64,000 nt of DNA from the NCBI RefSeq assembly GCF_009882945.1, contig NZ_WTUY01000003.1:140599-204598 (forward strand). The letters run 5' to 3'. This DNA is from Alcanivorax sp. DP30. GTDB lineage: Bacteria > Pseudomonadota > Gammaproteobacteria > Pseudomonadales > Alcanivoracaceae. Numbering within the stretch: the first letter of the stretch is position 1; each line of letters opens with the position of its first letter. This document shows positions 8,974 to 63,592 of the stretch, one piece after another. The notes beneath the pieces were generated by a model. The model ran no database searches, was not told the origin of the DNA, and saw only the letters and a list, made by a program, of their open reading frames with translations. The position numbers and the translations under genes are program-made.

Positions 8974-9176
8974 GAGTTTAGTGGCGAGTTTCGAGGAGCG
9001 CGTTTCGAAAGGCAAAACCGGCAATAAGAGGCAACACGCCAGATCACTTCGCGAGCAAGCAAGCTCCCGCAATAAAACAGGATGCCCGCCCCACTCTATT
9101 GTGTCCTGCGGGCTGCTGCGGGAGCGTGCCTGCACGCGAATTTGCCTTTCGCAACCCGAAACTCGTAACTCCACCC
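8974..9176. repeat. Heptamer-bounded element A (GTTNCGA family) enclosing a REP pair
   Basis: The left array is six in-phase heptamers: GAGTTTA, GTGGCGA, GTTTCGA, GGAGCGC, GTTTCGA, AAGGCAA (8974-9015). The right array is the inverse: TTGCCTT, TCGCAAC, CCGAAAC, TCGTAAC, TCCACCC (9142-9176). Between them, 9051-9071 and about 9117-9137 are facing REP-like hairpins ending in CTCCCGCA/TGCGGGAG. The element lies upstream of ruvC and just beyond the yebC 3' end. Confidence 0.7.
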
Positions 9177-9181
9177 TGAAA

Positions 9182-9216
9182 AGCAAAAACCCCGGGAGAT
9201 CCGGGGTTTTGCTTTT
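9182..9216 (-). terminator. Rho-independent terminator of yebC
   Basis: A perfect ten-pair stem AAAACCCCGG/CCGGGGTTTT surrounds a GAGAT loop, with T-rich flanks on both sides. It sits 30 bases after the yebC stop and could work in both directions. Confidence 0.8.
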
Positions 9217-9245
9217 ACTCGCAGCTTGTAGCTCGCAGCCTGCGG

Positions 9246-9983
9246 CTATTCTTCTTCCGCCGGCCAGCTGGCGTTGGTGTAGACGTTCTGCACATCGTCC
9301 AGATCTTCCAGCATGTCGATCATCTTCTGCACGGTTTCGGCTGTCTCCGCATCGATCTCGGCTTCCGTGGACGGATGCATGGTCACTTCGGCCTCGGCGA
9401 ATTCCAGACCGGCGTCGCGCAGCCCATCCACCACTTCACCAAACTGGTTGTCCGGGGAGGTGATAACCAGATAACCACCGCCATCAATTTCTTCCACGTC
9501 TTCGGCACCGGCTTCCAGCGCCACTTCCATGAGCTTCTCTTCATCGACACCAGGCTCGAAGTAAATCTCGCCACGCTTGCTGAACAGAAAAGCCACTGAA
9601 CCACTGGTGCCGAGATTACCGGCAAACTTGGTGAAGGCATGACGCACCTCGGCAACCGTCCGGTTCACGTTATCGGTCATGGTTTCCACCAACACCGCTA
9701 CGCCACCCTTGCCGTAACCCTCATAGGTGATCTCGTCCATGTTGCCGCCGTCGTCACCACCGGCACCGCGCTTGATGGCCCGGTCAATGGTGTCACGGGT
9801 CATGTTCTGACCCAGCGCCTTGTCCATGGCCGCACGCAGACGCGGGTTATCGGCAGGCTCACCACCGCCCATCTTGGCGGCCACGGTGAGCTCACGAATC
9901 AGCTTGGTAAAGATCTTGCCGCGCTTGGCATCCTGGGCCGCCTTGCGATGCTTGATGTTGGCCCATTTACTATGTCCAGCCAT
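9246..9983 (-). CDS. yebC: YebC/PmpR-family protein
   Basis: This is a member of the YebC family, known as a DNA-binding regulator and, in more recent work, as a translation factor easing polyproline stalls. It opens with the invariant [22 protein letters not shown], and the later KGGVAVLVE and GGYLVITSP segments belong to domains 2 and 3. The length of 245 residues is normal. It follows aspS by 72 bases on the same strand, and the aspS-yebC-ruvC order is common in gammaproteobacteria. The C-terminus is strongly acidic (PAEEE). Confidence 0.96.
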
Positions 9984-10055
9984 GCTGTCTCCCGTAATTG
10001 CTACGAACAGACCGGCGCGACCGCAGCCGCGCCGTTGTACTGCCTGCTGTTACTG

Positions 10056-11819
10056 TTATTGCTCTTCCTTTCGAACCTGAATACCCACTTCGCGCAGTTG
10101 CTTGCTATCCACCGGGGAGGGTGCATTGGTCATCATGCAAGCCGCGGTCTGGGTTTTCGGGAACGCGATGACGTCACGGATGGAATCACAGCCGGTCATC
10201 AACATCACCATGCGATCGAGACCGAACGCCAGACCACCATGAGGTGGCGCGCCATACTTCAGTCCGTCCAGCAGGAAGCCAAACTTCTCGTCTGCTTCCT
10301 CGTCGGAGATGCCCAGCGCTTCAAACACGGTGCGCTGCATGGCCGGGTTGTGGATACGGATGGAACCGCCACCCAGCTCGGTGCCATTGAGTACCATGTC
10401 ATAGGCACGGGACAGCGCGCTTTCCGGGTTGCTCTTCAGTTCTTCCGGGCTGCAGCTGGGCATGGTGAAGGGGTGATGCAGGGCATGGAACTGACCGTCA
10501 TCCTCTTCGAACATGGGGAAGTCCACAACCCACAGCGGGGCCCAGTCGCCTTCGACCAGATTCAGATCGTGACCCACTTTCACGCGCAGGGCACCGAGGG
10601 CCTCGTTAACGATCTTCGCCTTGTCTGCGCCAAAGAAAATCAGGTCGCCTGTCTCGGCACCAGTGCGCTCCAGAATGCCCTGGATCGCGTCTTCGGTAAG
10701 GAACTTGAGGATCGGCGACTGCAGACCTTCTGCGCCTGCGGCCAGATCATTGACCTTGATGTAAGCCAGCCCCTTGGCACCGTAGATGCTGACGAACTTG
10801 GTGTAGCCATCAATGTCCTTGCGGGACAGACTGCAGCCACCCGGCACCTTCATGGCGGCCACGCGACCTTTCGGATCGTTGGCCGGGCCGGAGAAGACCT
10901 TGAAGTCAACGCCTGCCAGCAGGTCCGCGATATCGATCAGCTCCAGCGGGATGCGCAGGTCCGGCTTGTCGGAACCAAAACGGCGCATGGCTTCGGAGAA
11001 CGGCATGCGGGGGAATTCCGGCAGCTCCACATCGAGCAGATCCTTGAACAACTTGCGCGCCATGCGCTCGGTGACACCCATGATGTCTTCTTCATTCACA
11101 AAAGACGCTTCGATATCGATCTGGGTGAATTCCGGCTGACGGTCAGCCCGCAGGTCTTCGTCGCGGAAACACTTGGCAATCTGGTAGTAACGGTCGAAGC
11201 CAGCCACCATCAGCAGCTGTTTAAACAACTGGGGGGACTGGGGCAGCGCGAAGAAGCTGCCAGGATGGGTACGGCTGGGCACCAGATAATCGCGGGCACC
11301 TTCAGGAGTAGCACGAGTCAGGATCGGGGTTTCCACATCCATGAACCCTTCGCCTTCCAGGAAAGCCCGGATGGAGTGGGTCAGGCGGGAACGGAACTGG
11401 AAGTTACGCAGCACCTCCGGCCGACGAAGATCCATGAAACGGTACTTCAGGCGCACTTCCTCGCCGGCACCGCCATGCTCATCCAGCTCAAAAGGCGGGG
11501 TGGCCGCTTCATTAAGGATGGTCAGCTCCTTGCCCAGCACTTCGATATCACCGGTGGGCATCTTGCTGTTGCGCACCGCTTCATCACGCATGCGCACACG
11601 GCCTTTGACCTGTACCACAAATTCACTGCGCACCTTGTCGGCCAGAGCGAAAGCTTGTTCGGTGTCCGGGTCAAACACCACCTGAACCAGGCCATTACGA
11701 TCGCGCAGGTCGAGGAAGATTACCCCGCCGTGGTCACGGCGACGGTGTACCCAGCCGCACAGCTCAACTGTTTCTCCATCTTGGGAGGCTCGCAAATCAC
11801 CGCAATAATGGCTTCGCAT
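10056..11819 (-). CDS. aspS: Aspartate--tRNA ligase
   Basis: AspRS charges tRNA(Asp) (or also tRNA(Asn) in non-discriminating forms). The OB-fold anticodon domain starts MRSHYCGDL and includes [18 protein letters not shown]. The class II catalytic core follows, with motif 2 [16 protein letters not shown] and motif 3 [12 protein letters not shown], and the bacterial GAD insert lies between them. The ATG at 11819 gives 587 residues, the normal length. The open frame continues about 180 codons upstream, but that part is low-complexity and unrelated. A weak GGAC lies upstream of the start. I cannot tell from sequence alone whether it is discriminating. Confidence 0.97.
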
Positions 11820-12183
11820 GCTAAATGTCCGTTCGTATTTCTGGTGGCACAGCCCCGTTACCAGAGTCATTTGCTCCGCCGGATAACCGGGCCGTTGAAA
11901 AAGGCGCCACAGTATAGCGATTCCACTGGCTGCGAGCCATGCCGGCCGGCAATCCGGTGGCAAACAGTGCCCTGACAGGCACATTTTTCTTAATAACCAT
12001 GAAAAATAGTGGTTTGAGCGCTTGTGAACTGGATTTTCCTGCCTTATAAAAGATCCGAACCATGTCAGTGACCCTCTGAGTAATTGCAGTCCAGGGGCGA
12101 ACCTGATCAGGGAAGCATCGCCGGCGTCCAACCAGAAGACGTCATCACAAATCAGGAAGACACCAAAAAGGGGTAAGCAATCC
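11820..12183. other. Divergent intergenic region aspS / HU-like gene
   Basis: This 364-base region separates two divergent genes and should hold both promoters. A candidate plus-strand promoter is listed separately. An 11-base dyad GTGCC-TGTCA-GGCAC type hairpin is visible near 11965-11985. No further gene is supported. Confidence 0.5.
12022..12050 (+). promoter_or_regulatory. Candidate sigma-70 promoter for the HU-like gene
   Basis: TTGTGA (12022-12027) and TATAAA (12045-12050) are separated by 17 bases. It would give a leader of about 125 bases before the ATG at 12184, which has an AAGGGG ribosome-binding site. This is a pattern match only. Confidence 0.4.
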
Positions 12184-12558: not shown

Positions 12559-12567
12559 TTCTGGCCC

Positions 12568-12591
12568 GGCCACCGGTACCGCCGGTGGCCA
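12568..12591 (+). terminator. Hairpin after the HU-like gene
   Basis: GGCCACCGG and CCGGTGGCC form a nine-pair stem ten bases after the stop codon. The following sequence is C/T-rich rather than a pure T tract, so termination strength is uncertain. Confidence 0.5.
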
Positions 12592-12733
12592 GTCTCCTCT
12601 CCTGAATCACACTCCCTCTGGCCTCTGGCCATCACAACCTTCTATAATGCGCGCCCTTGATTGAGGGCAGTGGTCATTTCGCTATCGCGACCGCCTCCAA
12701 TGCCCGAAACCCGATTTGGAAGCAGGAGTCTCC

Positions 12734-14533: not shown

Positions 14534-15151
14534 ATGTCACTGTACGAAGACCGTGTCTTCCCCAAACTGCTGGACTGGGCTACCCGCCCGGTCTGGCGGG
14601 ACCGGGAAAAACTGCTAAGCCAAGCCCATGGCAAGGTTCTGGAACTGGGTGTCGGCACGGGCGCGAATTTCCCGCTCTACACCTCAAACGCCACGGAAAT
14701 TCATGGCATCGAGCCCGGCGACGCCTTGCTGGATCTTGCGCGTGAATCCGCCAACCAGTGTGGCAATCCGCAACGCTTCCACCTCCAGACTGGCGACGCC
14801 CAGGCACTGCCCTATGCGGATGAAACCTTTGATACGGTTGTGGCTTGTCTGGTGTTTTGCACCATACCTGACCCCCAGGCCGCTGCCCGGGAAGCCTTTC
14901 GGGTACTGAAACCTGGCGGCACTTTGCTGGCGCTGGAACATGTGGCCAGCGAAAAACGTTGGGTAAGGCATGTCCAGACCGGCCTGAACCCGGCTTGGAA
15001 ACACCTGGCCTGTGGCTGTCAGCTGACCCGCGACACCGCCACCACCTTCCGTGAAGCCGGCTTCAAGCTCAACAAGGCCACTCATCGAAAACACCCCAAG
15101 CTACCCGCCTTCGCCGCAGAGTTACTGGACGGGGCATTGCTGAAACCCTGA
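14534..15151 (+). CDS. Class I SAM-dependent methyltransferase
   Basis: A 205-residue Rossmann-fold methyltransferase. Motif I is LELGVGTGANF (about 36-46), the acidic motif II residue is in IHGIEPGD, and motif post-I/III follows at DTVVACLVFCTI and LKPGGTLLALEHV. The overall layout (LGVGTG..., CTIPDP, EHVASEKR) resembles phospholipid or ubiquinone/menaquinone-type methyltransferases of the UbiE/PmtA group. The substrate cannot be told. It follows the acidic exported protein by 2 bases. Confidence 0.85.
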   Translation: MSLYEDRVFPKLLDWATRPVWRDREKLLSQAHGKVLELGVGTGANFPLYTSNATEIHGIEPGDALLDLARESANQCGNPQRFHLQTGDAQALPYADETFDTVVACLVFCTIPDPQAAAREAFRVLKPGGTLLALEHVASEKRWVRHVQTGLNPAWKHLACGCQLTRDTATTFREAGFKLNKATHRKHPKLPAFAAELLDGALLKP

Positions 15152-15157
15152 AGAGCA

Positions 15158-15258
15158 GCTGCAAGTCTCAAGCTACAAGCTGCAACGCGTAGAGATCATT
15201 GCGAGGCACGTAAAGCACAGAAAGGCCTTGCCTCGTGTTGAAGCTTGAAGCTTGTAGC
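15158..15258. repeat. Heptamer-bounded element B (GCTNCAA family)
   Basis: The left array (15158-15185) is GCTGCAA, GTCTCAA, GCTACAA, GCTGCAA followed by CGCG. The right array (15238-15258) is TTGAAGC, TTGAAGC, TTGTAGC, preceded by CTCGTG. The arrays are inverted relative to each other and enclose 52 bases. The element starts seven bases after the methyltransferase stop. Confidence 0.7.
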
Positions 15259-15314
15259 CACCGAGGCAAATTGCCACACGCCACTCCCGCTATTCTCCTC
15301 TACAATATCAGGCC

Positions 15315-22353: not shown

Positions 22354-22865
22354 GGAAACAAGCTACAAGCTTCAAGCTGCAACACGTGGAGATGCCCTGT
22401 TAACCGGGTAGTTTTATGCTCCGCGCTGGCATGCTCTGAAAACAAAAAAACTACACCTGTCAGGGTGCGATTTTTTTGATTGCAGGCAGGCGACTTGCCC
22501 TAAACAAGACAAGTGCCAGAGGCACCTCAGTTCCTCGCTCAGGCTCGGATCGCTTGCAGGCAAGCTCCTACAGCCCCGCCTGCCAACAGCGTCAGATGCG
22601 TGCTGTAGGAGTTCCCTTCCAGGGGACGAACCTCGCGCAGCGAGGCGACCGTAGGGAGACCATTCTTTAGAGACCTATCGAGCCTGGAAATGCCTGATCG
22701 CACTTCGCTCGATTCCGTGCTGCGCACGGTGCCCACCTCAAGAGCCAGTCCTACAGCGGCTTCGTAGAAAAGCCAAAAAGATGGGAACCTTTCGGCCTTT
22801 CTTAATCCAATCCAGCGTAGCTTGTAGCTTGTAGCTTGTAGCTTGTAGCTTGTAGCTTGTAGCTG
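22354..22865. other. Gene-free tamB-thioesterase gap with heptamer arrays and REPs
   Basis: This 512-base convergent gap has no supported gene. It is bounded by the heptamer arrays of element C. Inside it are REP-like hairpins: one at 22543-22574, an inverted one starting GTAGGAG near 22605, and a third degraded copy near 22675-22755. Confidence 0.7.
22362..22863. repeat. Heptamer-bounded element C (GCTNCAA family), expanded right array
   Basis: The left array (22362-22382) is GCTACAA, GCTTCAA, GCTGCAA followed by CACG. The right array is six perfect TTGTAGC copies (22822-22863), ending two bases before the thioesterase stop codon. The perfect six-copy run suggests recent expansion by slippage. 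The arrays are inverted relative to each other and enclose 439 bases. Confidence 0.75.
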
Positions 22866-23282
22866 TCAGCCAACCGGCAAGGCATAGGTGCCGGTCACAT
22901 GGGCCACCATGTCATGGCTGCCTTCGCTGAAAAGCTGCACTTCCAACACCGCTGAACGACGGCCCAGACGCAGGATCACCGCCTCTGCAATCAGATCCTT
23001 CTGCGCCGGACGGGACAGGAAGTTGATGTTCAGGTTCTGGGTCACCGCCATTTCCACCCTGCCCAGAGCCCCCAGCACCGCCGCGTACATGGCCGCATCC
23101 GCCAGGCCCATCATGGTAGGCCCAGAAATGGTGCCGCCAGGGCGCAAGGTCGAAGGGCGAAACGGACTACGCACCCGGGCACGGTGTTCACCAATGGACT
23201 CTACCAGCAGCCCCTCCTCTGATGCCGCCGGCAAGCCATCGTAGATCACCGCCTGAACCTGTTCCGCATTCAACATATCCAT
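22866..23282 (-). CDS. PaaI-type hotdog thioesterase
   Basis: A 138-residue hotdog-fold protein of the PaaI/YdiI group of acyl-CoA thioesterases. The family core is visible as GGTISGPTMMGLADAAMYAAV (about 49-69), where the aspartate is the likely catalytic residue, and NLNINFLSRPAQ follows. The substrate cannot be told. It reads into element C at its 3' end, and the terminator of the next gene lies immediately upstream, so it probably has its own promoter within a short space. Confidence 0.85.
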   Translation of the reverse strand: MDMLNAEQVQAVIYDGLPAASEEGLLVESIGEHRARVRSPFRPSTLRPGGTISGPTMMGLADAAMYAAVLGALGRVEMAVTQNLNINFLSRPAQKDLIAEAVILRLGRRSAVLEVQLFSEGSHDMVAHVTGTYALPVG

Positions 23283-25830: not shown

Positions 25831-27549
25831 ATGCGCACTTCCCAATACCTGCTCGCCACTGTCAAAGAAACCCCTGCAGACGCGGTTGTCATTAGCCACC
25901 AGCTCATGCTGCGCGCCGGTCTGGTGCGCAAGCTGGCCTCCGGCCTGTACACCTGGCTGCCCACCGGGCTGCGGGTACTGCGCAAGGTGGAGAATGTGAT
26001 CCGCGAGGAGATGGACCGGGCCGGCGCCCAGGAAGTGCTGATGCCGGTGGTGCAACCCATGGAGCTGTGGGAAGAGTCCGGCCGCGCCCCGGCCTATGGC
26101 CCGGAGCTGCTGCGCATTACTGACCGTCACAACAATCCCTTCTGCCTGGGCCCCACCCATGAGGAAGTGATCACTGACATGGTCCGCAACGAAATCCACA
26201 GCTACAAGCAGTTGCCGGCCAACTTCTATCAGATCCAGACCAAGTTCCGTGACGAGATCCGTCCGCGCTTTGGCATCATGCGCTCGCGGGAATTCATCAT
26301 GAAGGATGCCTACTCCTTCCACACGGACATGGATTCCCTGGCTGAGACTTATCAGGTCATGCACAACGCCTACTGCGCCATCTTCGATCGCCTGGGCCTG
26401 GACTACCGTCCGGTGGAAGCCGATACCGGTGCCATCGGTGGTGCTGCCAGCCATGAATTCCACGTGCTGGCCGATTCCGGCGAGGACGACATCGCCTTCT
26501 CCGACAGCTCCGACTTCGCCGCCAATGTGGAGTTGGCCGAAGCCCTGGCCCCGACCAGCGAGCGGGCGGCACCGGGTGCCGCCATGGAAAAGGTGGATAC
26601 CCCCAACGCCAAAACCATCGAGGAGCTGGTGGAACAGTTCGATCTGGCCATCGAAAAGACCGTCAAGACCCTGGTGGTGAAAGGTGCTGAGGAAGGCACG
26701 CTGGTCGCCCTGCTGGTGCGTGGCGATCACGAACTCAATGATATCAAGGCAGAAAAGCTGGACGCAGTGGCCGCGCCCATGGAATTTGCCAGCGAAGACG
26801 AGATTCGCAAGGTTGTCGGTGCCGGCCCCGGCTCCCTGGGCCCCGTCAACCTGCCCATCAAGGTGATCGCTGATCGCAGCGTGGCAGTGATGAGCGACTT
26901 CGGCGCCGGCGCCAACGAAGACGGCAAGCATTTCTTCAACATCAACTGGGAGCGCGACGTGGCGCTGCCGGACGTGGCCGACCTGCGCAACGTGGTGGAA
27001 GGTGATCCGAGCCCGGACGGCAAGGGTACCCTGACCATCAAGCGCGGTATCGAGGTGGGACACATTTTCCAGCTGGGCACCAAGTACTCCGAAGCCCTGG
27101 GCGCCAAGGTGCTGGACGAGAACGGCAAGTCCGTCGTCATGCCCATGGGCTGTTACGGCATCGGCGTCACCCGCGTGGTGGCTGCCGCCATCGAACAGAA
27201 CCACGACGACCGCGGCATCATGTGGCCGGAAGCCATCGCCCCCTTCCAGGTGGCCCTGGTGCCGGTGAACATCAAGAAGAGTCCCCGTGAACGTGAACTG
27301 GCAGAGACGCTCTATGCCGAACTCACTGCCGCTGGCATCGACGTTATTTTTGATGATCGCGAAAAAGAGCGCCTGGGCGTGAAACTGGCCGACAGTGAAC
27401 TGATCGGCATCCCCCACCGCATCGTCATCGCTGAACGCGGCATGGACAATGGCGTGTTGGAGTACAAGGGACGTGGGGATGCTGAAAATACTGATGTGCC
27501 GGTGGACGAGGTGGTGGCGTTCATCAAGAAAAAGCTGGGCGTTAATTAA
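25831..27549 (+). CDS. proS: Proline--tRNA ligase
   Basis: ProRS of the bacterial type. It begins [10 protein letters not shown], has class II motif 2 near [17 protein letters not shown] and motif 3 near [12 protein letters not shown]. The editing INS domain lies between motifs 2 and 3 (about 225-405), and a C-terminal anticodon-binding domain ends the protein. The length of 572 residues is standard. Its stop codon TAA lies inside the left terminal repeat of element E1, so that repeat forms the gene's last codons (GVN-stop). Confidence 0.97.
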
Positions 27550-27706
27550 TAGTTAATAATGAATAATTAATAACGTCGCGAACCCGGTTTTTAGGGTTCT
27601 CAAAACAAAGAGGCCGCGTCCAAAGCTTGGACGCGGCCTCTTGCGTTTAAGGCGCACAGGCGTTGACTCGCGCCAGCTATTAATTATTCATTATTAACTA
27701 TTAATT
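27544..27706. repeat. Element E1: 163-bp inverted-repeat element with terminator hairpin
   Basis: The ends are perfect 29-base inverted repeats made of four heptamers: ATTAATA, GTTAATA, ATGAATA, ATTAATA. The inner edges read ACGTCGCG on the left and its counterpart GCTGGCGCG on the right. The centre holds a perfect 12-pair stem (27610-27640, GAGGCCGCGTCC with loop AAAGCTT). T-rich sequence on both sides makes it a likely bidirectional terminator. The stops of proS (left) and the DUF4062 gene (right) fall in the repeats. Element E2 at 29750-29910 is the second copy. Confidence 0.85.
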
Positions 27707-28778
27707 AAAGTTTCACCGTCCTTTTCACCGCCATCACCTGGCTCATGGTGTTGTCGCCATGGGCGGTGAGCTGCCAGAGTGGCAGGCCGCGGCTATCCAT
27801 TTCCTGGGACTTGGTGATCAGGCCAAGGGCACGCAGGTGGATCTTGAGCTGGTTGAAGGAATGGGCCGCCAGCACCACGTTGCGCACGGCGTGGGCGCGG
27901 GGGAAGTCTTTCTGCACATCGGCCAGGGCCTTGCGCACGATGAAATCTTCCAGAGCTTTTTGCATCACCGGCTCCGAAGCCGGATTGAGCATCAGCGGCG
28001 CCACACAGGAGAACGCCTGGTCCCAGCTAATCCGGGTGGTGACCATGGCCAACTTGCAGTCGCCGCCTTCATAGACATTGCAGGAATAATCCAGCGCCAC
28101 CTGATCCGCCCCTCGTGACAGGGTCTTGAGGGGGGGGCGGGACTGGGCAAGAGCCTCTTCCCGTTCCTTCTCCAGCTCCTGGATGCGGGCCTTGAGCCCG
28201 GAGGTGTCGGCGCCACCACCGGTCGCGGTCTGATCAGCCCGAACCCAGCCCGCGGCCCGGTGTTCACGCATCAGGTTCGGCAGTACCTTGCGCGCCACTT
28301 CGGTGAGACCCGCTTCCGTGCTCCAGCGAAAACATGGCACTTTCTCTTCCAGCAAACGCACAAAGTCGTCTCGACGCACCTGGCCATCACGGGTGGCCTC
28401 CTGCTGATCGGCTTTCAGCAAGGTGGGGTTGTCATGAATAAACGCCACCACTGGTTTGCGCTTGGTGGCTGCAAAGATATATTCGCGATGAATCTCACTG
28501 AGCCCCATGGGCGAGAGATGACCGTAGCGCCCTCCCACGATCAGGATGAAATAATCACTGGTTTCGATCAGCTTCTGGATCACCGGCAACAGCGTGTTGC
28601 CGTCGGCAGCGGCACTGTCCAGACCGGTCGGAATCATGCCGTTCTCGATCATGGGCAACATCATTGCCTGACGCGCCCCCTGCATGTCGGGATACGTGGC
28701 GCTGATAAAGACCTGATAGCGTTTCGAAGCTGTCACCCTGATTACCTGTTCCTTTGGCTTTTTACCCTCTGAGGGCAT
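27705..28778 (-). CDS. DUF4062 (TIR-like) domain protein
   Basis: This 357-residue protein begins with a DUF4062 domain (about 20-125; KRYQVFISATYPDMQ, then LIVGGRYG and SEIHREYIFA), which belongs to the TIR-like fold group. A coiled coil follows (about 195-215). The C-terminal 150 residues are unrecognised and end VKRTVKL. It diverges from a ParA-like gene across 226 bases, and the pair is bracketed by elements E1 and E2. DUF4062 proteins often occur in defence or signalling contexts, so a defence role is possible but not shown. A GTG start at about residue 15 is an alternative. Confidence 0.8.
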   Translation of the reverse strand: MPSEGKKPKEQVIRVTASKRYQVFISATYPDMQGARQAMMLPMIENGMIPTGLDSAAADGNTLLPVIQKLIETSDYFILIVGGRYGHLSPMGLSEIHREYIFAATKRKPVVAFIHDNPTLLKADQQEATRDGQVRRDDFVRLLEEKVPCFRWSTEAGLTEVARKVLPNLMREHRAAGWVRADQTATGGGADTSGLKARIQELEKEREEALAQSRPPLKTLSRGADQVALDYSCNVYEGGDCKLAMVTTRISWDQAFSCVAPLMLNPASEPVMQKALEDFIVRKALADVQKDFPRAHAVRNVVLAAHSFNQLKIHLRALGLITKSQEMDSRGLPLWQLTAHGDNTMSQVMAVKRTVKL

Positions 28779-29004: not shown

Positions 29005-29751
29005 ATGAAGACCATTGCCTTTTATAACCTGAAAGGGGGTGTCGGCAAGACCGCTTCGGCAGTAAATATCGCCTGGCACGCAGCGCGCTGGAAGCACCGT
29101 ACCTTGCTCTGGGATCTGGACCCCCAGGGCGCCGCCAGCTTCTACCTTGGCGTGGATGATGGTGATGGCTACAAGGCAGGCAATGTGCTCAAGGGCAAGC
29201 AGCCCATCGGCCGACTCAAGCGGGAGACCCGCTGGACCAATCTGGATGCCATCCCCGCCGACCTGTCCATGCGCAATGCGGATATCAAGCTGACTGAAGG
29301 TGGCAGCGCCAAGAACAAGCTGAAGCAACTGATCGCGCCACTGGGTGAAAGCTATGAACTGGTGATTCTCGACTGTCCACCGACCCTCAGCCCAGTGGCA
29401 GAAAGCATCTTCGCAGCAGTGGATTATCTGTTCGTGCCGGTGATTCCCACTCATCTTTCCGTGCGCGCCTTTCAGCAGGTGCTGGACTGGATCGAGAGCA
29501 AGAACTACAAGAATCTCACCGTGGTGCCGTTCTTCAACATGGTGGACCGCCACCGCGACCTGCACGTGGAAATGCTGGTAAAACGCCCCAAGGTCATGAA
29601 AGGCGGCTTGAAGACCTGGATCCCCTACTCCACCCATGTGGAACAGATGGGCGATCACAAGGCCCCGGTAGGCGAATTCGCCCCCTACACCCCCAGCGCC
29701 CAGGCGTTTCGGGCCATGTGGTTTGAGATTGCAGGAAAACTGAAGCTCTAA
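29005..29751 (+). CDS. ParA-family ATPase, no ParB partner
   Basis: A 248-residue MinD/ParA-type ATPase. The deviant Walker A motif KGGVGKT is at residues 10-16, Walker A' is near LLWDLDPQGAAS, and Walker B is LVILDCPPTLSP. Such proteins position DNA or large complexes. There is no ParB-like gene next to it, and the chromosomal parA is normally with parB near the origin, so this is an orphan ParA. It is divergent from the DUF4062 gene. Its TAA stop lies in element E2. A ribosome-binding site (AGGA) precedes the ATG. Confidence 0.88.
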   Translation: MKTIAFYNLKGGVGKTASAVNIAWHAARWKHRTLLWDLDPQGAASFYLGVDDGDGYKAGNVLKGKQPIGRLKRETRWTNLDAIPADLSMRNADIKLTEGGSAKNKLKQLIAPLGESYELVILDCPPTLSPVAESIFAAVDYLFVPVIPTHLSVRAFQQVLDWIESKNYKNLTVVPFFNMVDRHRDLHVEMLVKRPKVMKGGLKTWIPYSTHVEQMGDHKAPVGEFAPYTPSAQAFRAMWFEIAGKLKL

Positions 29752-29910
29752 TTAATAATGAATAGTTAATAATTAATAACGTCGCGAGACGGGTTTTCGT
29801 GTTTTGAAACGCATGAGGCCGCGCCCAATGTTTGGGCGCGGCCTCATTGCTTGGCATTAAGACAGTCGCTGCTCGCGCAGCTATTAATTATTCATTCTTA
29901 ACTATTAATT
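29750..29910. repeat. Element E2: second copy of the inverted-repeat element, 161 bp
   Basis: The left end has the heptamers ATTAATA, ATGAATA, GTTAATA, ATTAATA, with the middle two in the opposite order to E1. The right end (inverted) is ATTAATA, GTTAAGA, ATGAATA, ATTAATA. The centre is a perfect 15-pair stem (29814-29846, loop TGT). Compared with E1, a T-A pair in the stem is a C-G pair, a compensatory change that keeps the structure. The ParA and aidB stop codons fall in the ends. Confidence 0.85.
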
Positions 29911-31599
29911 GCTCTCCCACGGATCAGCCCGTCCCAAAATCTCCCCCAGGTCCAGCCCCCTCGGCAAGGTCCCATAATTACGGTCGCCGTGCTGACCGAG
30001 ACGAGAAGCGATAAACGCTTCCGCCACTGCCTGATTCCCCGCCGCCACCAACTGGCTGGCCTGCATGGTCAGCGACAACCGATCGACGATGTCGCGGGCA
30101 CGGTATTCCGCGTCTTCCATGTCTCTGAATTCCTGTTTGAGCGCGTCGACGGCCTTGTCCAGTCGCACATCGCTACCGCGGGTCTTGTCCAGTTCGGCAA
30201 ACCAAGTCTCCAGCACCGTGGGTGTCTTGGCCAGTGCGCGCAGCATATCCAGCGCCTGCACATTGCCGGAACCTTCCCAGATCGCATTGATAGGCGCCTC
30301 GCGATAGAGCCGCGCCATAATGAAGTCTTCGGTGACACCGTTTCCGCCAAGACATTCCATGGCCTCATAGGCATGGAAGGGACTGCGCTTGCAGATCCAG
30401 TACTTGCCCGCCGGCAAGCCCAGCCGCAGCAACAGTTTTTCATGGTCGTTCTTGGGGTCCAGAGTGGACTGGTCCAGCGCCTCCCCCATACGCATGGCAA
30501 TGGCCAGAGACCCTTCCACTTCCAGCTGCAGGTCCGCCAGCACATTACGCATCAGTGGCTGGTCCAGCAGGGTCTTGCCGAATGCCGCTCGGCCGGAGGC
30601 ATGGTTTACCGCCTGGGCCACAGCCTGACGCTGGCCCGCCATGGAACCGATCATGCAATCGAACCGGGTCATGGCCACCATCTCGATGATGGCGGGTACC
30701 CCACGGCCTTCTTCACCGACCATCCAGCCCAGGGCACCGCGCAGTTCGATTTCGGAGGACGCATTGGACACATTGCCCATCTTGTTCTTGAGGCGCTGCA
30801 CCTGGATCGGGTTCTTGCTGCCATCCGGACGCCAGCGCGGCACCAGGAAACAGCTCAGACCATTCTCGGTCTGGGCCAGCACCAGAAAGGCATCGCACAT
30901 GGGCGCGGAGGTGAACCACTTGTGCCCCACCAGCTCGTAGGCCTCGCCGGTGCCTTCGGCGCCAATGGCCCAGGCACGGGTGGTATTGGCACGCACATCG
31001 GAGCCACCCTGCTTCTCGGTCATGCCCATGCCGATGGTCAGCGCCTCTTTTTCATAGTGAGGCACATTGCGCGGGTTATAGGCGTTATTGAGGATCTTTG
31101 GCAGCCACTCCTTGGCCAGCGACGGCGTGAGGCTGATGGACGGCACCGCCGCAAAAGTCATGGTCAGGGGGCAGCCATGGCCGGCTTCCACTTGGGCCTG
31201 CAGATAGCTTTGCGCGGCGCGGGCCACATGGGCTCCCGGCTTCGGGTCCGTCCATGGCGAGGAGTGCATGCCGGACTCCAGGCCCAGCGCCATCAGCCGG
31301 TGATAAGACTCGTGATACTTCACGTAATCCACCCGGTAGCCCTGCCGGTCATGGGAGAAGAACTGGGGCTTGTGTTCGTTGGCCAGAAAACCCCATTCAA
31401 TCACCTCAGCCGTGCCGGTTCTGGCACCGTGCTCGAGCAGTTTAGGCTCTGCCCAACCGGCACCATGACGCTGCACCGCTTCTCGCAGAGCGGTGTCAGT
31501 TTCATAGGGGTTATAATTTTCCAGCACCCGGGCCTGGTTGAAGACCTCATGGGTCTGGGCCAACGGATCCGGCTTGAGGCTGTCGTGCTTGGCATTCAT
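29905..31599 (-). CDS. aidB: AidB-like acyl-CoA dehydrogenase
   Basis: This flavoprotein belongs to the acyl-CoA dehydrogenase superfamily. It aligns closely with the AidB branch: VFNQ near the start, PLTMTFAAVPS, IGMGMTEKQGGSDVRANTTRA, VGHKWFTSAP and MARLYREAPINAIWEGSGN. AidB is part of the alkylation (Ada) response in E. coli, has weak dehydrogenase activity and binds DNA through a C-terminal basic region. At 564 residues it is slightly longer than E. coli AidB. A TetR regulator gene ends 22 bases upstream on the same strand, so local TetR control is likely. Its stop is formed by element E2. Confidence 0.9.
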   Translation of the reverse strand: MNAKHDSLKPDPLAQTHEVFNQARVLENYNPYETDTALREAVQRHGAGWAEPKLLEHGARTGTAEVIEWGFLANEHKPQFFSHDRQGYRVDYVKYHESYHRLMALGLESGMHSSPWTDPKPGAHVARAAQSYLQAQVEAGHGCPLTMTFAAVPSISLTPSLAKEWLPKILNNAYNPRNVPHYEKEALTIGMGMTEKQGGSDVRANTTRAWAIGAEGTGEAYELVGHKWFTSAPMCDAFLVLAQTENGLSCFLVPRWRPDGSKNPIQVQRLKNKMGNVSNASSEIELRGALGWMVGEEGRGVPAIIEMVAMTRFDCMIGSMAGQRQAVAQAVNHASGRAAFGKTLLDQPLMRNVLADLQLEVEGSLAIAMRMGEALDQSTLDPKNDHEKLLLRLGLPAGKYWICKRSPFHAYEAMECLGGNGVTEDFIMARLYREAPINAIWEGSGNVQALDMLRALAKTPTVLETWFAELDKTRGSDVRLDKAVDALKQEFRDMEDAEYRARDIVDRLSLTMQASQLVAAGNQAVAEAFIASRLGQHGDRNYGTLPRGLDLGEILGRADPWESN

Positions 31600-32265: not shown

Positions 32266-32547
32266 GATCGGAATCCATATTCACCTCTTTAAAGAAGTGA
32301 ACCATGGTTCCGATTTTCAGGCAAGACCGGTGGTCGGGGCGGAGATGAGTTGAAAGTTCAAAGTTGAAAAGCGCGATGGAGGTGATCGGGCTCTGGCAAG
32401 CTGTGCCCGCGCCATGATCAACGATCATCAGCACGGCGTTGGCGTACTTGTATCGCGCAAACGCTGAAGATCGCTTTAGGAACGCCACTTGAAGCAGGGA
32501 TATGCATGCCTCAATTAGCCGTTAGCTACTGCATTTCAACGAAGCTG

Positions 32548-32638
32548 CTGTAGGAACGTAGCGTAGCGGAGTAACGCACGGAGTGCGGCCCCGAAGGGGT
32601 GAGCGGAGCGAATAACGAGCCTGCTCGCGATCCGAGCC
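32548..32638. repeat. Long-form REP element
   Basis: It begins with the GTAGGA edge and ends GATCCGAGC, the inverse of the short REPs. About 60 extra bases lie inside, with small dyads such as CGCACGGAGTGCG and CCCCGAAGGGG. The copy at 36475-36566 has the same plan. Confidence 0.6.
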
Positions 32639-32667
32639 CGAGCGAGGCAAGGATTCCAGAGAGAAGG

Positions 32668-32756
32668 GTTACGAGTTTTGTGTCTCGAAAATCTTTAACC
32701 TCAAAAATGAGCAAGGTGTACAGGCTTTTCAAACCTCGTCACTCAAAACTCGCTTA
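32668..32756. repeat. Heptamer-bounded element F-inner (GTTNCGA family)
   Basis: Left array: GTTACGA, GTTTTGT, GTCTCGA (32668-32688). Right array: TCAAACC, TCGTCAC, TCAAAAC, TCGCTTA (32729-32756), in inverse orientation. A short REP follows 15 bases later. Confidence 0.65.
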
Positions 32757-32771
32757 TTTTACCTCGCCGTG

Positions 32772-32803
32772 GCTCGGATCGCTTGCAGGCAAGCTCCCAC
32801 AGC
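32772..32803. repeat. Short-form REP hairpin
   Basis: The 32 bases run GCTCGGATC, the hairpin GCTTGCAGGCAAGC, then TCCCACAGC. The inverse strand shows the GTGGGA/GTAGGA edge plus palindrome typical of Pseudomonas-type REPs. Near-identical copies are at 22543-22574 and, in part, at 36475 and 61882. Confidence 0.7.
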
Positions 32804-32921
32804 AGAACAGGGAAATGGCAAATTGAGCACGCATATCCCCATGAAGCGCGCCCTCTGCATCTCTGGCCGAACACCCTCTCCCGCGCTTTTCAACTTTGCA
32901 CTTTAAACTTTCAACTGCCCC

Positions 32922-34058
32922 TCACAGCACGACAGCTACCACCCCAAAACTCGCCATCCCCAACACCATCCCCCACAACGGCACCTTGCCACTGCGCAAC
33001 AATGCGAAGCCGGCCGCAACCACCATCAGGTCCCAAAACCCGTTCACCGCGGACACAAACACCGGCTGGTACAACGCCGCCAGCAACAGCCCCACTACCG
33101 CCGCATTGATACCGGCAACGGCGCCGGCCAGCGCCGGTCGCGAAGAGAGCCATTGCCACCCTTCCAGCAGCCCCAGCACCAGCAGAAAACCGGGCAGGAA
33201 AATGCCCAGGGTGGCCATCAGCGCTCCCAGCCAGGGACTGGCCGGCAGCAACACGGCGCCCAGATAGGCGGCCAGGGAAAACATCGGGCCGGGCACCGCC
33301 TGAGCGGCGGCATAGCCGGTAAGGAACTTGTCCGGGTTCATTTGCGGTCCCACCAGCTCTTGCAACAATGGCAGCACCACATGGCCACCGCCGAACACCA
33401 GAGCACCGGCGGCAAAGAAGTCATTCCACAGCCCCAGCACACGGCCACCGGTAAACACGGCAATCAGTGACAGCAGTGCAAACAGGATCAGGGGCACACG
33501 ACGTACCACCGGCGCACCGCCCTCTGCCGCTTCCCGATCAGGCCGCAACCGGTGCCAGCCCAGGGCAGCAGCTGCCATCAACGCCACGATCTGCCCATAC
33601 AGGGACGGCCAGAAGATCAGCAGCATCGCCACCGCCACAGCCAGCCCCCGGGTCAGCGAGGTGGTGCAGAAACGCTTGCTCATGTTCCACACCGCATCGG
33701 CCACCACTACCACAGCCAACCATTTCAGCCCGGTAATCGCCCCGCCCTGCAGCCAGTCCGGCAGGCTGCTGGCATAGATACCCAGCAGGGCCATGATCAG
33801 GAACGACGGCAGGGTAAAAGCAACAAACGCAGTGAACGCGCCGGCCACCCCACCGCGCACCCGGCCGATAGCAAAGCCCAGCTGACTGGAGGCAGGCCCG
33901 GGCAGAAACTGGGTCAGCGCCATCAGCCGGGCAAACTCGGTCTCATCCAGCCATTTCAGTTCGTCCACAAAACGACGATGAAAATAGCCCACATGCGCTG
34001 CCGGTCCGCCAAAGCTGACAAGCCCGAGGACCAGAAACTGACGAAAGATATCCTTCAT
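32922..34058 (-). CDS. chrA: Chromate transporter ChrA
   Basis: ChrA is an inner-membrane exporter of chromate, and possibly sulfate, of the CHR family. Both CHR domains are present in one 378-residue chain: the first starts FGGPAAHVGYFHRRF (about 17-31) and has FLPGPASSQLGFAIG; the second has FGGGHVVLPLLQELV and AVPGPMFSLAAYLGA. About ten membrane helices are visible. It diverges from recQ across 95 bases. No chrB regulator is nearby. The gene's stop is seven bases from the F-outer heptamer array. Confidence 0.93.
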   Translation of the reverse strand: MKDIFRQFLVLGLVSFGGPAAHVGYFHRRFVDELKWLDETEFARLMALTQFLPGPASSQLGFAIGRVRGGVAGAFTAFVAFTLPSFLIMALLGIYASSLPDWLQGGAITGLKWLAVVVVADAVWNMSKRFCTTSLTRGLAVAVAMLLIFWPSLYGQIVALMAAAALGWHRLRPDREAAEGGAPVVRRVPLILFALLSLIAVFTGGRVLGLWNDFFAAGALVFGGGHVVLPLLQELVGPQMNPDKFLTGYAAAQAVPGPMFSLAAYLGAVLLPASPWLGALMATLGIFLPGFLLVLGLLEGWQWLSSRPALAGAVAGINAAVVGLLLAALYQPVFVSAVNGFWDLMVVAAGFALLRSGKVPLWGMVLGMASFGVVAVVL

Positions 34059-36289: not shown

Positions 36290-36373
36290 ACTTCCCCGGA
36301 GCCATAGGAGCCTTCTCTGCCCTTCAGAGTAGGCTTGCAGGCGATCCAGGCCTTGGAGAGGGATGTGTCAGGA

Positions 36374-36453
36374 GATGCGAGTTTCGAAAGGCAAAACCTC
36401 AAACCCTGGACTGGGCATCGTCTTTTTGAGTTTCGAAACTCGTCACTCGTCAC
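36374..36453. repeat. Heptamer-bounded element G (GTTNCGA family)
   Basis: Left array: GATGCGA, GTTTCGA, AAGGCAA (36374-36394). Right array: TCGAAAC, TCGTCAC, TCGTCAC (36433-36453). The left array ends in the same AAGGCAA unit seen in elements A and J. A long REP starts 22 bases to the right. Confidence 0.7.
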
Positions 36454-36474
36454 TGGAATCCATACCTCGCTCAG

Positions 36475-36566
36475 GCTCGGATCGCTTGCAGGCAAGTTAT
36501 TCGCTGCGCTCACCCTGCGGGCCTGCCAGCGGCTGTTACCTCCGTTGCACTCCGGTTCCCACAGCC
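36475..36566. repeat. Long-form REP element
   Basis: It starts GCTCGGATCGCTTGCAGGCAAG like the short REPs and is interrupted by a GTTATTCGCTGCGCTCACC segment before the CACAGCC edge. The inserted part resembles that of the copy at 32548-32638 in opposite orientation. Confidence 0.6.
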
Positions 36567-59765: not shown

Positions 59766-59829
59766 GTACCGAGTACCGAAAACCCAAACCCTGTTTGCCG
59801 TTGGTAACGCGAAACGCGTGACTCACTTC
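59766..59829. repeat. Heptamer-bounded element H (GTTNCGA family)
   Basis: Left array: GTACCGA, GTACCGA (59766-59779), then AAACCCA. Right array: TGGTAAC, GCGAAAC, GCGTGAC, TCACTTC (59802-59829). A REP-like hairpin follows at 59839-59861. Confidence 0.65.
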
Positions 59830-60780: not shown

Positions 60781-60828
60781 GGCTGCACTATCTGGTAAAG
60801 GTTAAAAAGCGTTAAGGGGTTGCCTGCT

Positions 60829-61263
60829 TCACGGATTGTCCCGATCACCGCCAAGCAAGAACGATGCCGTTGGCTCCACCATGATTTCATTCATGGCGGT
60901 ACGCCCAAGCAGCATACGGAATATCATGTTTTCACGGTCGGTCAGGGTGACTTCGATGGGCCACTGGCGGCCACCCAGGTCGATGGTAGTAACAATGACC
61001 GGGCGTTCTTCCTTGTGACCACCGGAATCGGTGACCACCCGGCGGTCAAGAACCGGTGCTTCGCAGACGGTGATTTGGGGGTGCTCCTGAATGGGATGCA
61101 GGGAAAAGCGTACCCATTCCTGGCCATCACGCATGAAGCTTTCCACTTCGAAGGCGTGTATGGCAGAGGTGCGAGCACCGGTATCCACCTTCATCTTGAT
61201 CGCATCAATGCCCAATTCTGGCAGGCTGGCCCATTCGCGCCAGCCAACTGTCACCTTGCCCAT
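60829..61263 (-). CDS. rimB: RimB-like retropepsin-fold protease
   Basis: A 144-residue protein of the 'ATP-dependent zinc protease' (DUF785) family, a retropepsin fold with the active-site triad DTGARTSAIHA (about 27-37). The family, called RimB in Pseudomonas, is linked to RimK and the control of S6 modification. The ATG at 61263 overlaps the gloA stop by one base (TGATG), so the two are coupled. The context directly upstream of rimK supports the assignment. Confidence 0.88.
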   Translation of the reverse strand: MGKVTVGWREWASLPELGIDAIKMKVDTGARTSAIHAFEVESFMRDGQEWVRFSLHPIQEHPQITVCEAPVLDRRVVTDSGGHKEERPVIVTTIDLGGRQWPIEVTLTDRENMIFRMLLGRTAMNEIMVEPTASFLLGGDRDNP

Positions 61264-61646
61264 CAATCGCGTCCCAGCAGTTCAATCTTGTAGCCATCCG
61301 GGTCTTCCACAAAGGCCAGCACCGTGGTGCCGTGTTTCATCGGCCCAGGTTCACGGGTAATCCTGCCGCCCCGTTCCCGAATGCGCTCACAAGCAGCGTA
61401 CACGTCATCCACGGCCAGCGCGACATGACCATAGCCGGTGCCAAGATCGTAGGATGATTCATCCCAGTTATATGTCAGCTCCAGCACTGCGCCTTCGGCT
61501 TCCGGCTGATAGCCCACAAACACATTGGTAAAACGCCCTTCCGGGTATTCCTTGCGGCGGATTTCATGCATGCCGAGCACGTCGGTATAGAAGGCTACGG
61601 ATTTTTCGAGATCGCCAACACGCAGCATGGTATGCAGGATTCGCAT
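61263..61646 (-). CDS. gloA: Lactoylglutathione lyase (glyoxalase I)
   Basis: GloA isomerises the hemithioacetal of methylglyoxal and glutathione to lactoylglutathione. It is a small VOC-fold metalloenzyme. Metal ligands are expected at H5 ([10 protein letters not shown]), E in [10 protein letters not shown] in GYGHVALAV, and E in YKIELLGRD. The ATG at 61646 gives 127 residues, near the usual 130-135, and has GGAG upstream. It is first in the cluster with rimB. Confidence 0.93.
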
Positions 61647-61813
61647 GGTCGGAGACTCCTGACAGCGAGGAAAATTCACAGGCACAGGTTGCGCCTGCCG
61701 TGTCAGGGCGAAGTGTGGTGGCAGTAAGGAGAATTGACAAGAAAAAACGCCGGATTCCGGCCATCAAGCCCGGGCTTTCTCTCCGGCAAGGGAAAACAAG
61801 TTCCAGGACACGG

Positions 61814-61872
61814 GTTTCGAGTAGCGAAATGCCCTGCCCGGTTCCCGTGACTTGTCACTCGAAACTCGTTAT
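61814..61872. repeat. Heptamer-bounded element I (GTTNCGA family)
   Basis: Left array: GTTTCGA, GTAGCGA, AATGCCC (61814-61834). Right array: CCGTGAC, TTGTCAC, TCGAAAC, TCGTTAT (61845-61872). A REP-like hairpin starts ten bases later. Confidence 0.65.
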
Positions 61873-61881
61873 TCCCCCACT

Positions 61882-61908
61882 TATCGCTTGCTGGCAAGCG
61901 CCTGCAGC
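61882..61908. repeat. REP-like hairpin next to element I
   Basis: ATCGCTTGCTGGCAAGCGCCTGCAGC is close to the short REPs at 22543 and 32772; the stem is GCTTGC/GCAAGC. Confidence 0.65.
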
Positions 61909-61972
61909 TGAGGCTCATCAATGACATTAAGCCTCAGCATTTAGCGTCAGTCATCCAGCATAGGGCGAATCA

Positions 61973-63370
61973 TCATGGCAGAAACAGTGAACCCTGATCT
62001 TCTACCCAGGCTTCCGGCACGCGGCCTTCGCGAATACGTTGCGGGTGATCACCCACATCCACCCGCGCCACTTCCTGGCCACTATCATAATTGAACACGG
62101 ACATCTGATCGGTACCGCTCCAGGATATATAGCAATGCTCGCCATCTTCACTGGTGGTCACCCAGTAAGGTTTCTCGCCAATGCCAGTCTTGATGGTGTA
62201 GTCAAAGGTTTCACGGTCAACCAGCGCCACGTAGTCACTCATGGTGCCGGCCACACACAGGGTCTGGTTATCAGCACTGAGAGCGATGCCGTGGTGGGCG
62301 GAGTCATTCACGTATAACTCGCGGGGCAGACCGTTGGTGAGATCGGGCAGCTCCGCCAGACGCAGTACCTTTTCCTCTTCAAGGTCGTACTCGATGAAAC
62401 CGTGCAGGAAGGAGAGCTGAAAATAGAAGTAGCGCTCGTCACTGGTGTGGGCCATGGGCCGCACGGCTGTGCTCAGGTTGCCGTACCCGGCCTCTTCCAG
62501 ATCCGCGGCGAGATCCAGCTGCTTGATGATTTCCATGCTGTTGGCGTCTACCACCTGAAAGATTCGCTCTCCCTTGGTGGCATCCAGAAGATTCTGGCCC
62601 AGCAAGGCATCGGTGAGATCGCCAATCAGTTTGCTGTCCAGCGGTGTGTAGACGGTGCCGATACTGGCATGGAAGATCCGCTCACCGTCTTCGGAATAGA
62701 TATTTTCATGGGGAGAATCACCAGACGGGAAGCGGTTGAGTTCTTCCCCGGTTTCCACATCGAGAATGTGCACCACATTGCCGGTGGAGGCCGACACCGC
62801 CACCTGGGTGCCATCCGGGGAGACGGCCATGTGATCAGACCGGTAACCATCTACCTCAAAGCGCCACTCCACTTCGCCAGAAGCAATGTCGATCCCCACC
62901 ACATCCGCGTAACTGGGCCGCGACACGATCAGCAGGCGACCATCGTTACTGCTGTACATATCGTCCACGTACTGGTGATGCCCTTCCCCAATCAGCAAGC
63001 GAATACCCTGGAAGAACAGCAGATCCTCAGGGTTGCTGGCAATGGCCGCCTCCCGTTCCGTCTGATCGGGAATTCCGTTAATACGGCCCAGACGCTGGTA
63101 GGTATCACGATCTACCACGTCCACCATGCCCTCCCAATTGTTGCCCACGAAGATCACCTCACGGGCCTGGGCAGCCGGTTCCGGCAGCACCGGGGTCTGG
63201 GCGTCTTCCGCCACATTGGCGACCGGCGCCTGCGACACACTCTCTGCGCCAGCCGCAGGTGCACTGGAGCTGCCACCCCCGCCACACGCGCTGAGAGAGA
63301 CAGACAGCACGGCAGCCAGCAGGCAACGTCGATGCAGGGATGGGATTGAAGCAGTCAGCACAGGAACCAT
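61973..63370 (-). CDS. Beta-propeller lipoprotein (YVTN/WD40-like)
   Basis: A 465-residue lipoprotein with lipobox LSAC (C29) followed by GGGGSSS, then a linker of about 40 residues. The rest is a propeller of YVTN-type repeats, for example GNNWEGMVDVVDRDTYQRLG, ISPDGTQVAVSASTGNVVHIL-like and YVALVDRETFDYTIKTG. Such proteins are known as surface or periplasmic scaffolds or as partners of periplasmic enzymes. The ATG at 63370 has GGGAGGA upstream. It is a single gene. Confidence 0.85.
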   Translation of the reverse strand: MVPVLTASIPSLHRRCLLAAVLSVSLSACGGGGSSSAPAAGAESVSQAPVANVAEDAQTPVLPEPAAQAREVIFVGNNWEGMVDVVDRDTYQRLGRINGIPDQTEREAAIASNPEDLLFFQGIRLLIGEGHHQYVDDMYSSNDGRLLIVSRPSYADVVGIDIASGEVEWRFEVDGYRSDHMAVSPDGTQVAVSASTGNVVHILDVETGEELNRFPSGDSPHENIYSEDGERIFHASIGTVYTPLDSKLIGDLTDALLGQNLLDATKGERIFQVVDANSMEIIKQLDLAADLEEAGYGNLSTAVRPMAHTSDERYFYFQLSFLHGFIEYDLEEEKVLRLAELPDLTNGLPRELYVNDSAHHGIALSADNQTLCVAGTMSDYVALVDRETFDYTIKTGIGEKPYWVTTSEDGEHCYISWSGTDQMSVFNYDSGQEVARVDVGDHPQRIREGRVPEAWVEDQGSLFLP

Positions 63371-63515
63371 GGTCGATTTCCTCCCAACGGATATGGGTGT
63401 TGTTATTCTGGGAACCTCAGCTTAGTTGTGACCATGGTACAAATTAAATGAGACTTCGTTTGCGTTGTGTAACAGGTGTTCACAGCAGGAGCGCAGGATG
63501 CCTGATGCTCAACGA

Positions 63516-63592
63516 GTTGCCAGTGACGAGTTCCGAAAGGCAACGCCAGTAGCCGGTCTCGAAGTTGGGTTTTGATCTTCGCCACTCGCAGT
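63516..63592. repeat. Heptamer-bounded element J (GTTNCGA family)
   Basis: Left array: GTTGCCA, GTGACGA, GTTCCGA, AAGGCAA (63516-63543). Right array: TCGCCAC, TCGCAGT (63579-63592). The AAGGCAA unit at the inner edge is shared with elements A and G. Confidence 0.65.

Follow-up and report, generated by a model that had tools for sequence, protein, structure and literature searches.

The closest described relatives of the elements reported here are the heptamer repeats of Xanthomonas and Nostoc, built on the units GGGAATC and GGGGA(C/T)T (Rehm et al. 2015, PMC4692102). In the portions of that paper that treat them, the Xanthomonas heptamers are intergenic, favour four units, form 70 convergent GGGAATC pairs in Xcc and 75 in Xac, and lie on the coding strand past stops or on the non-coding strand upstream of open reading frames (ORFs), mostly within 50 bp; the same portions link GGGAATC heptamers to G-quadruplexes and describe the function of the repeats as still to be found. 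The introduction of that paper also presents three Calothrix repeats as the cyanobacterial short tandemly repeated repetitive (STRR) heptamers. Comparable descriptions, as given in the relevant sections of each source, cover tandem TAACTGA repeats in Beggiatoaceae, Cyanobacteria and Bacteroidetes (MacGregor 2015, PMC4679880), multicopy heptanucleotide elements of 4-5 tandem heptamers in Geobacter metallireducens (PMC2700814) and the intergenic repeats R0, R1, R2 and R6 of Pseudomonas fluorescens (Silby et al. 2009, PMC2718517). Here we examine a 64,000-nucleotide stretch of Alcanivorax sp. DP30 (contig NZ_WTUY01000003.1, positions 140,599 to 204,598; the window), in which an original prediction made from the letters alone described gene-free elements bounded by facing arrays of 7-base units and knew of no bacterial family with such an inverted layout, a claim that the convergent GGGAATC pairs of Xanthomonas already contradict. 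We find facing arrays with one polarity and a common unit consensus at gene boundaries, several sites that persist among relatives, sister genomes that differ by whole units and one core inversion between species, and we give a probability of about 45% to the reading that these are cassettes with iterated heptamer ends, copied, swapped and flipped between gene-boundary sites.

Arrays were detected by self-comparison at a fixed shift with a score of 10 in 864 kb, made up of the window and 40 stretches of 20 kb from the same genome (3.62 Mb in 24 contigs); 20 of the 40 were chosen around BLAST matches to one array, a biased set, and the other 20 were spread blind. A shift of 7 gave 60 intergenic and 3 coding arrays, against 0-6 intergenic arrays for each other shift from 3 to 20 except the multiple 14 (44), with 18 at shift 21. 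When intergenic segments were shuffled with dinucleotides kept, the mean fell to 0.15 intergenic shift-7 arrays and the maximum to 1 in any of 20 runs, and the window together with the 20 stretches not chosen by BLAST held 34 arrays against 0.25 in shuffles; shuffled intergenic DNA did not yield equally many arrays. An inverted partner lay within 700 bp of 55 of 84 arrays (8 of these additionally match a direct copy), 29 had no partner and none had a direct partner only, so the predicted layout of facing period-7 arrays is real. These are terminal inverted repeats around a short core, present in many copies, the form taken by miniature inverted-repeat transposable elements (MITEs). In a wider set of arrays with at least three AGYTNMR-like units, drawn from the 40 stretches of this genome, 20 stretches of relatives and at least 117 pattern loci, 65 neighbour pairs within 600 bp face inward and 3 outward among the matches listed. 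Separately, six inward neighbour pairs with cores longer than 600 bp were listed. Very long near-exact arrays also occur, such as AGCTACG in about 12-14 units (L045:5716-5813, L024:14996-15086 and L043:15571-15654) and ACGCCTG at two neighbouring junctions of relative G011 (L076); we take them as a sign of recent expansion.

Oriented inward and aligned by phase alone, the 55 paired arrays share one unit, A-R-Y-T-N-M-D: A (87%), a purine and a pyrimidine, then T in most cases, a free base, either A or C, and finally any base but C. This consensus scored 222.8, against a mean of 174.0 and a maximum of 178.6 in 40 random-orientation controls, in a sample dominated by many copies of few alphabets that consequently represents few independent families. 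The four families of the original prediction had been held to be unrelated in sequence; the main ones are instead variants of this unit, and the GTCKGAC family fits it most poorly by eye. Pairs of the ARTKRAY alphabet face inward in 37 cases and outward in none, and their two arms have concordant alphabets in 27 of the 37 against 10.9 expected (maximum 21 in 20,000 shuffles), the 37 including orthologous loci and so not being independent; the concordance is in keeping with recent joint copying of both arms. Read unit by unit, the main alphabets (ARTKRAY, AGCTNCA, AGTTNCG and AGTTNAA) hold no run of three G, with a few G-rich arrays (GAAAGGG, GGGTATG-like) as exceptions, and for want of G-runs in the main units G-quadruplexes were rejected as a general explanation.

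The arrays abut genes in a consistent direction. With genes called by a simple hexamer-based finder, whose start positions are rough, a position could be assigned to 54 inward arrays, of which 37 have a gene 3' end behind them and 17 a 5' end, so that the prediction of at least one 3' end beside every element is mostly right. Consensus orientation, derived from the paired arrays among the 84, was possible for 64 of the 84 (19 were unclear and 1 lay at an edge), of which 47 stand in inward pairs, none in an outward pair and 17 unpaired, and 44 back onto 3' ends. In 39 of the 64 an ORF comes within 15 bp of the side facing away from the core, and in 1 within 15 bp of the opposite side: arrays point away from the gene they abut, often starting at its stop codon. 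Oriented by partner position, 30 of the 37 arrays at 3' ends fall within -14 to +9 bp of the stop, as they would if they were host-built 3'-end modules, that is, DNA or RNA signals before a terminator that are kept by selection, with facing pairs arising from a bidirectional terminator shared by convergent genes. A shared bidirectional terminator explains convergent sites well, but gene 5' ends are the site of 20 of the 64 orientable arrays, of which 14 belong to inward pairs, divergent genes included, and we regard this alternative as unlikely, if a serious contender.

The cores divide by alphabet. Among ARTKRAY cores, 22 of 26 fold far better than shuffles (z < -2), and a T-rich stretch follows the longest helix in 18 and precedes it in 1, which favours 3'-end modules; just 28 of 77 AGCTNCA cores pass the same threshold, a heterogeneity that speaks against them. 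A terminator as the common core was rejected outside ARTKRAY, since most AGCTNCA cores miss that threshold, and a three-frame stop device, with stops every 7 bases, was considered for ARTKRAY and rejected for AGCTNCA and AGTTTCG/AGTTACG, whose sense strands have no stops. Across 89 facing AGCTNCA-type pairs, the N base matches between arms at 74 of 253 opposed units (0.29), against 0.34 (standard deviation (s.d.) 0.03) for shuffled partners; with N independent between them, the arms look like rows of putative recognition sites rather than stem halves, and a hairpin stem was rejected as their conserved feature. Within AGCTNCA arrays, C is rare at N (18 of 628 units) and neighbouring units share the N base at 0.47 against 0.32 expected, a trace of duplication.

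Arrays that stand singly with a terminator occur at one locus of eight genus members, which carry a close copy of a chorismate mutase gene (identified by Pfam) between genes that we take to be trpC and crp, in the order trpC, chorismate mutase, crp. A sense array plus terminator follows trpC in 7 of 8, with no inverted partner before the next gene, and follows the chorismate mutase gene in 6 of 8. These single modules favour a host-built 3'-end signal and suggest that, in this array family, a half-element alone can act as a 3'-end module. At one locus (L026) the chorismate mutase gene lies within a short facing pair, the sole gene observed in such a position; chorismate mutase as a cargo gene was rejected, because G017, from a neighbouring genus, keeps the same gene order without arrays, which makes the gene a resident. 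The module after trpC resembles that after the next gene at 0.66-0.81 identity within genomes (five genomes), which overlaps the between-species range of 0.66-1.0, so that copying from trpC to the next gene is only suggestive.

Within the window, the two-armed plan predicted at eleven starts is clear at seven (15158, 22362, 27544, 29750, 32349-32915, 32668 and 61814); at three more (8974, 36374 and 63516) a single arm is clear, its partner falling below the shuffle 95% level under the consensus model, and at 59766 consensus-model scoring found no inward-ordered pair. The scoring consensus had as its training set arrays from the DP30 genome, among them some of the listed sites. The predicted CGCG-type inner motif was found, on reading the sequence, in all three families for which it had been named. 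The parts are as follows.

8974-9009, plus strand: degenerate AGTTNCG-type left arm of the 8974 element, with its inner motif; read from the sequence, below the shuffle 95% level
9150-9173, minus strand: right arm of the 8974 element, an inverted AGTTNCG array; sequence read and consensus scoring
9218-9246, minus strand: single AGC-NNNN heptamer array between the stop of the YebC-family gene and the terminator of that gene
15155-15184, plus strand: left arm, AGCTNCA array directly past the stop of gene 14534-15151
15238-15262, minus strand: right arm, inverted AGCTNCA array
22358-22382, plus strand: left arm, AGCTNCA array, 4 bp past the stop of the TamB-family gene
22817-22864, minus strand: inverted right arm of 6.9 exact copies, 1 bp off the stop codon of gene 22866-23282
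27543-27573, plus strand: left arm, ARTKRAY array that includes the stop codon of a prolyl-tRNA-synthetase-like gene
27574-27677, no strand: core with a strong terminator hairpin, inverted relative to several relatives
27678-27707, minus strand: right arm, the left arm's inverted complement, at the stop codon of gene 27705-28778
29749-29779, plus strand: ARTKRAY array forming the left arm, at the stop codon of gene 29005-29751
29780-29881, no strand: core with a terminator hairpin; sisters G014 and G016 differ in the orthologous cassette as a whole
29882-29910, minus strand: right arm, by the stop codon of the AidB-like gene 29905-31599
32348-32369, plus strand: AGTTNAA array, the left arm of the outer element in a nest
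32888-32916, minus strand: right arm, inverted AGTTNAA array beside the stop of gene 32922-34058
32667-32692, plus strand: left arm of an AGTTNCG element nested within the 32348-32916 element
32736-32753, minus strand: right arm of the nested AGTTNCG element
36374-36390, plus strand: short left arm, AGTTNCG type; below the shuffle 95% level
36430-36455, minus strand: right arm, inverted AGTTNCG array
61811-61829, plus strand: left arm, AGTTNCG type
61850-61875, minus strand: right arm, inverted AGTTNCG array
63511-63534, plus strand: left arm, AGTTNCG type
63578-63592, minus strand: weak right arm; below the shuffle 95% level

The single array at 9218-9246 has related, variable counterparts in most relatives by eye, and the outer facing pair at 32348-32916 contains a repeat like the repetitive extragenic palindromic (REP) sequences as well as the second facing pair. 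REP-like palindromes of the GATCGCTTGCAGGCAAGC type often enclose or sit within heptamer elements, giving nested inverted repeats (window 32500-32660, 36300-36560 and 22530-22740).

Sixteen other genomes of the genus were searched. At 27544-27707, facing arrays flank a terminator in 15 of the 17 genomes, and no fewer than three alphabets occur among them; the arrays of G015 are eroded, and G017 has a plain terminator alone. A REP-like palindrome replaces both arrays and the terminator at this site in G002 (L059). Compared with G003, G007 and others, G000 and G012 hold the core in the opposite orientation (G000 against G007, 54 forward and 115 reverse; G012 against G007, 69 and 134) and so, with a smaller, moderate margin, does G009, orientation being callable except in G014, G016 and G015. 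Because G000, G012 and G009 are not sisters, at least two and perhaps three inversions are counted, on a one-gene tree without support values; the inversion, as in an inverton, is seen between species at this one locus. At 29752-29904, the sisters G014 and G016 have coding flanks that are 94-100% identical in 100-bp windows and yet differ in arms and core, and the core of G016 nearly matches that of G000 and G007, which are more distantly related to it. Next to the YebC-family gene, at the junction 9983-10056, species have one of two unrelated cassette types, with GTCKGAC-like or with CACGCAN-like arrays, or no array (L071-L090), and the state of this junction differs within each of the sister pairs G016/G014, G007/G011 and G000/G003. 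Junction similarity between relatives has a median of 0.21 with arrays and 0.58 without (36 and 51 pairs; rank test p = 1.9e-4), where pairs are not independent, 'with' denotes an array detected in either genome, and the threshold assigned to 'without' certain sites that do have arrays, 27544 in G005/G010 being an example. That the sequence changes wholesale between sisters while the site persists argues against host-built 3'-end modules.

Agreement between neighbouring units at N, exact arrays of many units and a core that inverts between its arms would also suit a mutational by-product, in which 7-base polymerase slippage and template switching between inverted arms build, homogenise and invert the arrays with no function and no dedicated factor. 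Slippage accounts for changes in unit number, and a polymerase-footprint idea for heptamers is cited in the relevant part of Rehm et al. (PMC4692102). Template switching, however, predicts that arms match at N, and AGCTNCA pairs show no such match; left unpredicted, too, are one consensus and polarity in many taxa, the genus-restricted occurrence and the joint differences of arms and core, and we judge this explanation improbable.

Ten same-genus genomes sampled at 40 kb each gave 53 shift-7 arrays (a few probably in coding sequence), against 1 in 388 kb from nine genomes of other genera in the same order, eight of which gave none. Named Alcanivorax records with arrays are L124, L132, L133, L137, L204, L206 and L221. 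Exact AGCTNCA x3, the one alphabet queried, occurs in 1 of 274 genomes of the class, namely the DP30 genome itself, and a scan of named genomes for the same pattern gave at least 117 loci, mostly in Pseudomonas, with Stutzerimonas, Halomonas and Alcanivorax and, as minority hosts among the matches listed, Bacteroidota, Clostridia, Verrucomicrobia and others. Among these listed matches, an inverted partner lies downstream (inward) at 67 loci, Bacteroidota, Clostridia and Verrucomicrobia included, and upstream at 4, with both at one locus, so the polarity holds well outside the genus. The taxonomic spread is patchy. A broader proposal is that one class of exchangeable intergenic cassettes exists in several phyla, that a putative array-reading recombinase or transposase inserts, swaps and inverts them at gene boundaries, and that most described heptamer repeats are their ends; we hold it possible but doubtful.

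REP, bacterial interspersed mosaic element (BIME) and REPIN sequences are short inverted intergenic repeats of high copy number, each resting on one palindrome and linked to genes for REP-associated tyrosine transposases (RAYTs). The heptamer elements are likewise intergenic inverted repeats around a variable core, and might belong to this known class, moved by RAYT (Y1_Tnp) transposases, or be ordinary MITEs of an insertion sequence. Y1_Tnp matches occur in the DP30 genome and in 15 of 16 same-genus relatives, and G015 (3.12 Mb; L064, L087, L088), the sole genome of the 17 without one, has few, eroded arrays. Yet G014, in 40 kb as array-poor as G015, has two Y1_Tnp matches; six of the eight arrayless outgroups have Y1_Tnp; the elements lack target duplications; and the Y1_Tnp genes of the DP30 genome are flanked by a different, REP-like palindrome, with an array at just one of their three loci, about 1.1 kb off. 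RAYT as the mover is thus unsupported, and membership of this class is very improbable.

The elements are short, dispersed, mostly non-coding units, each end a row of usually 2-4 copies of one oriented, degenerate 7-bp site. On the cassette reading, their arms would serve as interchangeable ends by which cassettes are copied, swapped and flipped between gene-boundary sites, whether by a trans-acting factor or by homology-directed recombination between copies. Selection would leave cassettes flush with stop codons, because everything outside the ORF is free for replacement. The cargo of ARTKRAY elements is usually a transcription terminator, so that a copy placed at a gene end would supply termination to the gene itself and, in many cases, to the convergent gene beside it. 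A single mechanism for the families, as first proposed, draws support from the inward consensus, the constant polarity in many taxa and the replacement of whole elements; the accompanying suggestion of a mobile or amplifying element is plausible, although neither target duplication nor a linked enzyme was found.

Several observations weigh against this cassette reading. Flanking repeats in 81 AGCTNCA and 16 ARTKRAY pairs are scarcely longer than those with shuffled partners (length 4.28 against 4.16, s.d. 0.11, and 4.13 against 3.90, s.d. 0.19), giving no target duplication beyond chance. No enzyme gene was found linked to the elements, the three Y1_Tnp loci of the DP30 genome (3.2-3.3 kb) being flanked by REP-like repeats, and Y1_Tnp is present in 7 of the 9 outgroups sampled, eight of which are arrayless. 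Among the matches listed for the AGCTNCA x3 loci, 40 are partnerless and 7 have direct partners only, and shared descent accounts for part of the arm concordance of ARTKRAY pairs. The unpartnered arrays after trpC and the facing pair around chorismate mutase point the same way. In orthologous regions, the comparison first proposed, presence is high at 27544 (15 of 17 genomes) and patchier at other sites: by eye, the 15158 site has no array in 2 of 10 relatives (G014, G016) and is disrupted or eroded in two more, the 8974 pair is missing in about half of relatives, and the 36374 element is missing or partial in many. AGCNNCA arrays on at least 120 viral contigs are one-directional in 120 of 120 listed (L231-L350, for example L284, L298, L256 and L270), and 80 of the contigs listed have at least three arrays, all one-directional, with 365 arrays in 809 kb. 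As a separate observation, several of 45 viral arrays inspected finish with AAGCTTGACA and run on into a TATAGGAT-like stretch, which hints at an adjoining promoter.

Bacterial heptamer repeats have long been noted without an accepted explanation, and the present data speak against a general origin in G-quadruplexes. The repeats gain one polarity and, in this genus, one consensus, and prove to be the borders of cassettes, each of which changes as a whole within an unaltered gene order. If such cassettes ferry terminators from gene to gene, they would be a source of regulatory change between close species.

Compared with known systems, the elements are unlike REP, BIME and REPIN sequences in being built on tandem heptamers and not on one palindrome. 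Like R0, R1, R2 and R6, as described in the sections of PMC2718517 that concern them, they have two inverted repeats flanking a variable core and a bias to tail-repeat-tail gene pairs; those inverted repeats differ in being 24-43 bp long and are not described there as heptamer arrays. The Geobacter elements differ as proposed regulator or RNA sites, in a 49-member family partly within genes, with no facing cassette in the description available from PMC2700814. TAACTGA repeats, in the corresponding parts of PMC4679880, are also intergenic heptamer arrays of sporadic taxonomy, and the rotated unit AACTGAT fits ARYTNMD, but in the main genome they lie mostly just 5' of start codons; they and the Geobacter heptamers may be related phenomena. 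Open-licence full text queried with the array sequences in four spellings returned one irrelevant paper, and open-licence literature queried by topic gave, among the matches listed, none on alphabet change, cassette exchange or core inversion of heptamer arrays. The Xanthomonas and Nostoc repeats, in the account of PMC4692102 that bears on them, share the tandem heptamers, the convergent pairs and the placement, sense after stops and antisense before starts; they are G-rich, whereas most alphabets here lack G-runs and several coexist in one genome. The layout is known, and new here are the other alphabets, the wider spread, the one polarity, cassette replacement and inversion: beyond what that account describes, arms and core differ as units between sisters, one core is inverted, and the N base of AGCTNCA is independent between arms.

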